From Pigmentiphaga kullae (GTDB taxonomy: Bacteria; Pseudomonadota; Gammaproteobacteria; Burkholderiales; Burkholderiaceae_B), in contig NZ_SGXC01000004.1 of NCBI RefSeq assembly GCF_004216695.1, positions 124,001-188,000 of the forward strand: a DNA stretch of 64,000 nucleotides, given 5' to 3'. The translations under genes were made by a program, and so were the position numbers. The notes beneath the pieces are model-generated. The model saw only the letters and a list, made by a program, of their open reading frames with translations, was not told the origin of the DNA and did not search any database. This document shows, one piece after another, positions 46,213 through 48,379 of this stretch. Position 1 is the stretch's first letter; every line of letters starts with the position of its first letter.

Positions 46213-46414
46213 TTGAGAACTCCAGATGGATTTGTGATGGGGCACGAGGATGTTGCTCAGGTGCTCGGACGAGAGGATGACGATCCAACATGAGGCGAAA
46301 ATGACAGCGGGGTTGCGTCGCGCCGGACGTTGTTCAAGAACAACGGATCGGCGATTGCCTATACTGGAATCTGTTCGTGTCGCAGTCCGGCCGTGTCCGG
46401 ACCGGAGGTCGCAA

Positions 46415-47101
46415 ATGTCGGGAACCGCATCCTTTCGCCGTATTTCCCTGCTGGATCGGGTGTTATCCGAGGCGGATCGCGCCGTGCGCGTGCTGACGGG
46501 CTCGGTATCGGCGCAGCGTGCGAATCCGGCGGGCCGCCTGTCCGCGGCCGCCGACGGCTCGGCCGAAGAGGCCGCCGGCACCGAATTGACGGAGTCCGAG
46601 CGCAAGCACGCCGCCGGCCTGATGCGGGTCAATCACGTGGGGGAAGTCTGCGCCCAGGCCCTGTACCGGGGGCAGGCGCTGGTCTGCGACAAGCCGGATA
46701 CGCGCCAGGTGTTCCTGGACGCGGCGGCCGAGGAGACCGATCACCTGGCCTGGCTGGACGACCGCCTGCGCGAACTGCGTTCGCACTCCAGCCTGTTGAA
46801 CCCGCTCTGGTATGCGGGGGCTTTCGGGCTGGGCATGCTGGCGGGCAAGGCGGGCGAGGCCTGGAACCTGGGGTTCATGGCGGAAACCGAGCGGCAGGTG
46901 GAGCGCCACCTGGACGGACACCTGGGCACGCTGCCGGCCAATGATGCGCGCTCGCGCGCCATCGTCGAACGCATGGCCGCCGACGAGCGCCAGCACCGGG
47001 TGACGGCGGAGCAGCGGGGCGGCGTCGAGCTGCCCGCGCCGGTGCGGGCGGCGATGCGGTGCGGGTCCAAGGTCATGACCTCCACCGCCTATTACCTCTG
47101 A
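46415..47101 (+). CDS. coq7: Ubiquinone hydroxylase Coq7-like
   Basis: 228 residues. Di-iron carboxylate protein that hydroxylates 2-octaprenyl-3-methyl-6-methoxy-benzoquinol in ubiquinone synthesis (replacing UbiF). Two helices with ligand pattern: E in LMRVNHVGEVCAQALYRGQ, EETDH near residue 108, then E and DERQH in the C-terminal part. GGAGG is 7 bases before ATG 46415. Works downstream of IspB in the same pathway. Confidence 0.9.
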   Translation: MSGTASFRRISLLDRVLSEADRAVRVLTGSVSAQRANPAGRLSAAADGSAEEAAGTELTESERKHAAGLMRVNHVGEVCAQALYRGQALVCDKPDTRQVFLDAAAEETDHLAWLDDRLRELRSHSSLLNPLWYAGAFGLGMLAGKAGEAWNLGFMAETERQVERHLDGHLGTLPANDARSRAIVERMAADERQHRVTAEQRGGVELPAPVRAAMRCGSKVMTSTAYYL

Positions 47102-47533: not shown

Positions 47534-47811
47534 GATATTCCTCGTGCTGCGATAGAAAGTTGGCGAATCAGCACGATGATAGCGGGTGGGAGGCGGGTTT
47601 CGCGGTGCTTGCATGGTCTGATGATGCTGCGATGCAGCGAAAACTGCGACAAATGGTCGCGCCCCCCGGTCAAGCCGCCCGCAGTCCCGATTTTTCGTCG
47701 ATGACGTTGCGGAGCGATGGGATGGTTTGTAAGTAAGTCATTGATCGGAAAGGAATTTTTTGTCCGCAGCCGCATCGGTTTTTGTACGTAGGCAACAACC
47801 CTAGGAGGTTC

Positions 47812-47840
47812 TTGCATCGCACAAAACATCTCTCTATAAT
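47812..47840 (+). promoter_or_regulatory. Promoter of anti-SD sRNA 1
   Basis: -35 TTGCAT (47812-47817), 17-bp spacer, perfect -10 TATAAT (47835-47840). The same geometry is repeated before the second sRNA. Confidence 0.85.
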
Positions 47841-47846
47841 TGACCC

Positions 47847-47989
47847 AACGGATGACGCTTTGTATGTCGACACGGCCCAGGGCCCCTCGGCATCGTCGGA
47901 TAGCCCCGCAAAGCTCATTCACCGGTGTCTCCTCCACCCTCCTCCTTTGGTGGATTAGCCCGAAGCCGCAAGGCTTCGGGCTTTTTTTT
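47847..47989 (+). ncRNA. Anti-Shine-Dalgarno small RNA, copy 1
   Basis: About 143 nt from the predicted start to the T-run of a terminator with an 11-bp stem and GCAA tetraloop (AGCCCGAAGCC / GGCTTCGGGCT). The 3' half holds GTCTCCTCC and CCCTCCTCCTTT; the second is in a loop closed by CCACC/GGTGG, so CCUCCUU, the 16S anti-SD core, is exposed. A CACCGGTG palindrome precedes. There is no credible ORF. Similar RNAs are the Betaproteobacteria toxic small RNA described by Rfam and the cuckoo (CcsR) RNAs with CCUCCUCC loops; family assignment is by recall. The gap 47534-47811 to its left shows nothing else. Confidence 0.82.
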
Positions 47990-48188
47990 GCCCGCTCCTT
48001 GTTGCTGTGCGGCAAAACAAGCGGAAAAAGCCGAGCGAGGATAGGGTCGAGTCTGACCGTTTGGCCGGAAAAGAGAAGGAAAAGAAGAGCAGGGCGACGC
48101 TAAATTAGGATTTAATCTATTGATATAAAAGGAATTTTTGCCTGTTGAAATTTGAAACCGTATTGTGGTGAGCAGGCAAAAAAACTTC

Positions 48189-48217
48189 TTGCAACGCACA
48201 AACCGCTTCCCTATAAT
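48189..48217 (+). promoter_or_regulatory. Promoter of anti-SD sRNA 2
   Basis: -35 TTGCAA (48189-48194), 17-bp spacer and perfect -10 TATAAT (48212-48217). Bases between the boxes differ from copy 1, while the boxes are conserved. Confidence 0.85.
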
Positions 48218-48223
48218 GGGTTC

Positions 48224-48366
48224 AACGGATGTCGCTTTGTATGTCGACACGGCCTCGGGCCTCTCGGCATCGTCGGATAGCCCCGCAAAGCCCATCCACC
48301 GGTGTCTCCTCCACCCTCCTCCTTTGGTGGATTAGCCCGAAGCCGCAAGGCTTCGGGCTTTTTTTT
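48224..48366 (+). ncRNA. Anti-Shine-Dalgarno small RNA, copy 2
   Basis: Same 143-nt layout as copy 1: near-identical 5' part with TTTGTATGTCGACACGGC and CTCGGCATCGTCGGATAGCC, identical GTGTCTCCTCCACCCTCCTC core and identical terminator stem with GCAA loop. Differences fall mainly in the first 10 bases and in a few unpaired positions. The copies are separated by about 230 AT-rich bases carrying no ORF of note. Confidence 0.82.
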
Positions 48367-48379
48367 GCCTCGGCCAGGA

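Follow-up and report, generated by a model that had tools for sequence, protein, structure and literature searches.

Tandem RF02278 small RNAs of Pigmentiphaga kullae with a PhaR-operator-like box at both promoters

The stretch of DNA analysed here, called the window, covers 64,000 nucleotides (nt) of Pigmentiphaga kullae, and contains two small RNA (sRNA) units, arranged head-to-tail at 47847-47990 and 48224-48367. The units, about 143 nt each, are offset by 377 bases: 138 of 144 aligned positions are identical between the copies, and the final 64 nt of the RNA (47926-47989 and 48303-48366) are the same in both. Each unit has its own promoter, TTGCAT-17-TATAAT at 47812-47840 for copy 1 and TTGCAA-17-TATAAT at 48189-48217 for copy 2, with an A seven bases beyond the -10 box, at 47847 and 48224 respectively; these positions are taken as the predicted starts by analogy with S17, an sRNA of Bordetella pertussis. 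A consensus promoter scan returned only the promoter of copy 2: TTGCAT shares three of the six letters of TTGACA, which falls under the scan's rule, and the copy 1 promoter was therefore missed by the scan and read directly from the sequence.

CTCCTCC occurs twice in each unit, the second time, in the predicted fold, within a 10-nt loop, CUCCUCCUUU, closed by a UCCACC/GGUGGA stem. Each unit is predicted to fold into a leader hairpin, a CU-rich stretch, the CUCCUCCUUU-loop hairpin and a terminator with a GCAA loop followed by 8 T; the whole-unit fold is stronger than those of 200 out of 200 dinucleotide shuffles (z -4.1 and -4.3). The core of the RNA is laid out as a 5' stretch complementary to Shine-Dalgarno (SD) sequences (Site 1), the CUCCUCCUUU-loop hairpin (Site 2) and the terminator. 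The initial annotation had described the two units, their spacing, promoters, terminators and paired CUCCUCC stretches, all of which can be read in the sequence; the operator-like box and the structured 5' leader were absent from it. The features, all on the forward strand (+), are as follows.

47734-47746 (+): IHF-like YAANNNNTTGATW site of copy 1, final base off consensus, near -107
47809-47825 (+): copy 1 palindrome resembling the PhaR operator, TTCTTGCATCGCACAAA, containing the -35 box (47812-47817), one mismatch to YTKNTGCRNYGCANMAR
47835-47840 (+): -10 box of copy 1, TATAAT; predicted start 47847
47847-47925 (+): 5' leader of copy 1, predicted fold, with closing helix 47850-47863 paired to 47908-47920
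47926-47989 (+): sRNA core of copy 1, predicted processed form, RF02278 at 70 bits; corresponds to S17S
47957-47989 (+): intrinsic terminator of copy 1, GCAA loop, T8
48113-48125 (+): IHF-like site of copy 2, exact, near -105
48186-48202 (+): copy 2 palindrome resembling the PhaR operator, TTCTTGCAACGCACAAA, containing the -35 box (48189-48194) and differing from the consensus at one position
48212-48217 (+): -10 box of copy 2, TATAAT; predicted start 48224
48224-48302 (+): 5' leader of copy 2, predicted fold nearly as in copy 1
48303-48366 (+): sRNA core of copy 2, RF02278 at 70 bits, 64 nt identical to copy 1
48334-48366 (+): intrinsic terminator of copy 2, GCAA loop, 8 T

Both copies match RF02278, the Betaproteobacteria toxic sRNA family, over the full model (positions 1-64), with a score of 70 bits against a cut-off of 50 and an E value of 3e-13 (4.5 kb searched). 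Such values are not expected by chance: membership of both units is certain, and the link to this family, already proposed from the sequence, is borne out. NmsR (RF02877), which scores 43.7 and 41.6 bits, under its cut-off of 52, was rejected. No other sRNA family reaches its Rfam cut-off in the window, where the sole other passing match is a tRNA; the comparison with cuckoo RNAs, also made in the initial annotation, finds no support among the Rfam models that we take to be of cuckoo type (alphaproteobacterial anti-SD RNAs). The neighbourhood is that of S17, next to coq7: a porin gene, COQ7 (domain in 46250-47098) and, between COQ7 and the sRNAs, an OsmC gene lie on one side, while genes for a DUF4168 protein, L13, S9 and a semialdehyde dehydrogenase lie on the other. 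The host belongs to Pigmentiphaga, placed in Alcaligenaceae, rather than to Bordetella or Achromobacter, the genera named in the initial annotation.

Of the 151 genomes in the window's family, 140 have RF02278 above cut-off, most of them with a single copy listed; across the order it is found at E 1e-5 in 98 of the 200 genomes sampled, and 75 of those pass the family cut-off. Nine of the 11 Pigmentiphaga genomes carry two copies, spaced by 376-580 bases; of the other two, one carries a lone copy and one gives just a weak match of 26 bits. The window pair is a tandem variant of a known sRNA family, made of free-standing genes. A tandem RF02278 pair, 378 bases apart, is also seen in a genome of another bacterial family (L288, G161:C1:1645700-1646700), which has 9 matches; neither unit of that pair has a PhaR-like core upstream. 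Locus L068 (G011), from another genus, holds one unit only; its leader is short, and its promoter (TTGCATTGCACAAA, TATAAT) closely resembles the two window promoters.

The -35 box of both promoters, TTGCNNYGCACAA, resembles the operator of PhaR, a repressor sensing polyhydroxybutyrate (PHB). The operator consensus reported for Ralstonia eutropha is YTKNTGCRNYGCANMAR, for which the source tolerated three mismatches. PhaR of Sinorhizobium meliloti gel-shifts promoters containing ATTTATTGCAACGCACAACCA (phaP1) and TTTTATTGCATTGCACACTGA (phaP2), and shifts were abolished when the palindromes were left out or changed; these bound sites are nearly identical in sequence to that consensus.

The box is conserved. 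TTGC-RNY-GCA, spanning the -35 element and the start of the spacer, is kept in all 19 Pigmentiphaga units examined, and TGCRNYGCA, the core of the box, is found upstream of 148 of the 154 family units examined, compared with 5.6 in dinucleotide shuffles, an approximate figure, as is the one given below. Among all 64 palindromes of this form TGC ranks top, with 148, the runner-up reaching 20. The 154 units comprise the 133 best hits of family genomes, two secondary copies and the 19 Pigmentiphaga units; G130 (at a contig end), the secondary copies G012b and G112b (core unmatched by the pattern), G155, whose hit is weak, and additional copies from genomes with several were left out, and the PhaR search excluded G151-G154.

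The box also follows PhaR. Six units have no core: both secondary copies examined in G013, the unit of G125, where a single base departs from it, and those of G057, G107 and G119. G057, G107 and G119, from three genera, are the sole sRNA carriers without a PhaR match among the 151 family genomes. G107 and G119 keep TCTTGC of the -35 element but have lost the right half-site seen in their congeners; PhaC is gone from both, and is retained in G057. At the genome level, the box is present in 135 of 136 PhaR-positive and in none of the three PhaR-negative sRNA carriers of the family (Fisher p 9e-6), a statistic that, like the covariation figures below, ignores phylogeny apart from the comparisons among congeners. 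Outside the family, where 87 units from 76 of the 92 genomes matching RF02278 were sampled (the remaining 16 are all under the family cut-off), the core is found within 320 nt upstream of 36 of 53 units in PhaR-positive genomes (36 of 50 genomes), and of 2 of 34 units in PhaR-negative ones (2 of 26 genomes); shuffles give 4.55 of 87, and the genome contrast has a Fisher p of 9e-8, kinship not being corrected for. The two PhaR-negative exceptions are an 85% complete genome, whose congeners have PhaR, and a unit with the box at -237 and poor arms. Some loci, among them L007, L008, L010 and L012 and mainly from genera g27 and g6, have an additional PhaR-like palindrome lying 54-57 bases further upstream.

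The window's own genome encodes PhaR (PF07879, E 9e-31), PhaC and one phasin. TTGCNNYGCACAA has 7 matches in its 6.2 Mb, against 3 for the reversed control: two are at the sRNA promoters and one is ahead of a gene whose product has a PHB-depolymerase domain. The exact full PhaR consensus occurs at five places: one is upstream of the sole Phasin_2 gene found, and the other four are near LysR/MFS, IclR and IscR-like genes (names read from the sequence) or within a coding region.

Taken together, the conservation and phylogenetic distribution of the box indicate that both promoters probably carry a PhaR operator, and that PHB accumulation would free the sRNAs to act as a carbon-surplus brake on uptake. 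In P. kullae, a sigma-70 promoter would produce an RNA of about 143 nt with a structured leader, which RNase E would trim to a form of about 64 nt, by analogy with S17; the sequence around the S17 cut, GGUGUCUCC, is found in both units. The unpaired 5' end UGUCUCCUCC and the loop CUCCUCCUUU would then pair, with the help of Hfq, to SD regions bearing a GAC(A) extension, blocking translation. The main targets would be uptake genes, chiefly those of TctC/Bug binding proteins, together with other binding proteins, a porin and a sigma-54 activator. At low PHB, PhaR would repress both sRNA promoters; as PHB accumulates, PhaR would move off them to the granules, releasing the sRNAs.

A number of observations weigh against PhaR control. 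Outside the family, no box is found in the examined units of 14 of the 50 PhaR-positive genomes, among them all five examined of family f21, and 5 of 7 units of family f7 are also without it. Within the window's family, G125 is PhaR-positive with a core one base off, and both examined G013 secondary copies lack it. PhaR loss accompanies small genomes and, usually, PhaC loss: being coupled with genome reduction, it could stand in for the loss of a different regulator. G119 is just 91% complete, and the G057 promoter is not alignable. Conservation of the left half-site is accounted for by the -35 element itself, and within the window's genome the consensus at one mismatch is no more than modestly enriched, with 64 matches against 43 for the reversed pattern.

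In one alternative, the pair are ordinary S17/RF02278 siblings that arose by duplication for dosage; the -35 box would be the site of another repressor or an extended promoter element, and PHB would be uninvolved. Family membership, which is certain, agrees with it, as do the PhaR-positive genomes without the box and the box losses that coincide with genome reduction, in which other regulators were lost too. We nevertheless consider it unlikely: the box is a PhaR-type palindrome that tracks PhaR over many families; G057 lacks PhaR and box, yet retains PhaC; and in G107 and G119 the right half-site eroded while the -35 element persisted.

A wider reading, held with somewhat less assurance but more likely than not, is that PhaR control is the ancestral wiring of the RF02278/S17 family in Burkholderiales: stored carbon would release the sRNA, which would shut off carbon uptake, and the repressor that has been postulated at the S17 promoter would be PhaR. 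Lineages that lost PhaR would then have lost its operator as well and put the sRNA under other control. With such an operator, a widespread family acting on metabolism would be tied to PHB storage; it would also supply the repressor postulated for S17, and set up a feedback from stored carbon to uptake, in a family whose input signal in Burkholderiales is not given in the parts of the literature consulted. Comparative evidence for PhaR as regulator of RF02278 sRNAs is strong, and this role is apparently unreported: among the open-access papers listed (subscription papers being outside the scope) titles and abstract openings contain no link of PhaR or PHB to RF02278 or S17, and the words PhaR and PHB are absent from PMC5688073.

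Candidate targets were sought with the pattern GGAGGAGAC-N(2-12)-ATG, the complement of the RNA 5' end placed ahead of a start codon. It has 34 matches in the genome and none when reversed, a control that leaves SD content uncontrolled; two matches are the antisense of the sRNAs themselves. Thirty of the 34 loci were read: 17 are starts of TctC substrate-binding genes, while the others correspond to two further binding proteins, a porin, a sigma-54 activator response regulator, five other proteins (one apparently cut inside a longer gene) and four short open reading frames (ORFs) without match. The genome contains at least 150 TctC/Bug substrate-binding genes (150 scored, 422 candidates), and genes so numerous may share their ribosome-binding site (RBS) sequence through descent, a further point against targeting. 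GGAGAC precedes the start in 17 of 30 TctC genes chosen by domain score, a count possibly inflated by the selection of starts with a score favouring AGGAGACA-like strings. AC follows GGAG in 15 of 22 TctC starts and in 5 of 34 control starts (p 1e-4), the controls being ORFs of at least 150 codons after GGAG rather than verified genes. Earlier RBS calls on TctC genes and controls, based on poor ORF calls that left 14 of 30 loci usable, were replaced by these. TctC and the other named genes are targets by prediction; the earlier statement that targets and function are unknown was too pessimistic, as S17, ncS27 and NmsR are characterised and likely targets can be named.

A further alternative is a general toxic anti-SD RNA, inhibiting translation at large, for example to arrest growth. 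The family name, the two CTCCTCC stretches of each unit and published growth inhibition by relatives, including ncS27 in Burkholderia, speak for it. Toxicity was originally described in Kimelman 2012. This alternative is very improbable: in Escherichia coli BL21, S17S showed no exponential-phase toxicity and impaired stationary entry just modestly (PMC11722255), and the likely targets share the GAC extension past the SD core.

The history of the pair was followed in nine Pigmentiphaga pairs. Likeness of the upstream flanks is 0.57 between first copies, 0.64 between second copies and 0.41 between the two copies of one genome; for the RNA parts it is 0.94 within and 0.90 between genomes. In the RNA part, 11 columns split the G096/G116 lineage from the others in both copies and none splits copy 1 from copy 2, against 8 copy-specific columns upstream. 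The pattern is consistent with a single old duplication, after which the RNA parts were homogenised and the upstream flanks stayed distinct; selection on the RNA could add to the likeness of the copies. Tandem copies would raise dosage. The initial annotation had suggested dosage or separate control: the -35 box shared by both promoters makes a common regulator likely, while the upstream flanks and the bases following the -10 box, copy-specific in several congeners, make some separate control possible. The latter bases, TGACCC at 47841-47846 and GGGTTC at 48218-48223, are a possible place for separate growth-rate control of the copies. The IHF-like sites lie 111-113 bases before the starts of the two copies. 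Nine of 19 Pigmentiphaga units have the site in its exact form, and the four positions at which the IHF consensus allows variation vary there as well.

The RF02278 match starts downstream of the 5' leader, which has features of its own. In other genera, the leader helix GGATGTCG/CGACATGCC is paired in 79% of cells, compared with 64% when partners are shuffled (42 distinct strand pairs), and shows 52 cells with double changes, against a shuffle mean of 16.4 and a maximum of 28: none of 1000 shuffles is as high. The number of leader pairs with a double change (7 of 8) is matched by 158 of 1000 shuffles, and is not an informative measure. Duplex energies differ weakly (cognate -12.8, non-cognate -11.6, shuffled strands -11.5 kcal/mol), the cognate duplex falling in the best tenth for 8 of 40 genus representatives; the reason is that many genera have nearly the same helix. 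In Pigmentiphaga a longer helix occupies its place. That the leader codes for a small protein, making the RNA an mRNA or a dual-function RNA, as a 32-residue ORF in S17 and a frame open from the first ATG through each window unit might suggest, is the least credible alternative and was rejected: the ATG reads GGAAG in both G096/G116 copy-1 units, and an indel separates the leaders of those two; of the 6 positions at which the window copies differ, 4 alter a residue (judged by eye); and leader pairs are compensatory in other genera.

S17 of B. pertussis (PMC11722255), which is of RF02278 type, is among the closest known systems. It lies between BP3151 and coq7 and is transcribed from a TTGCAT-17-TACTAT promoter; RNase E processes it to 67 nt. 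It depends on Hfq, and reciprocal mutations showed that it represses BP2158 through base pairing. Without S17, 91 genes are raised, 70 of them complementary near the RBS and many transporter-related, which supports the broad RBS binding proposed in the initial annotation. No direct effect of BvgA on its promoter was found, and its authors postulate a repressor. The window units share with S17 the kind of 5' anti-SD sites, the hairpin, the terminator, the TTGCAT-17 promoter and the coq7 neighbourhood; S17 differs in being single-copy, in its longer leader (190-nt form), in its Bvg-linked expression and in having a repressor postulated for it, no link to PhaR being made in the parts of the paper cited. 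The double-hairpin sRNAs ncS03/05/27/62 of Burkholderia (PMC5688073, PMC4603805) also belong to RF02278 and have predicted targets in carbon transport and metabolism; three share an upstream motif, and ncS03, ncS05 and ncS27 rise in glucose medium. Unlike the window pair, they are dispersed rather than tandem, and no regulator is named for them in the text cited. NmsRA and NmsRB of Neisseria (RF02877, PMC5362039) are tandem siblings with two anti-SD stretches, repressing metabolic genes, but are under RelA control, and NmsRA is reported to have TTGACA as its -35 box. Further background was drawn from PMC7011215, PMC12849132, PMC12542648 and PMC8401924. MmgR (alpha-r8) of S. meliloti is an Hfq-dependent sRNA repressed by PhaR/AniA, to which the ancestral PhaR wiring, if true, would be a parallel; it belongs to an alphaproteobacterial family, and its reported effect is on phasins.
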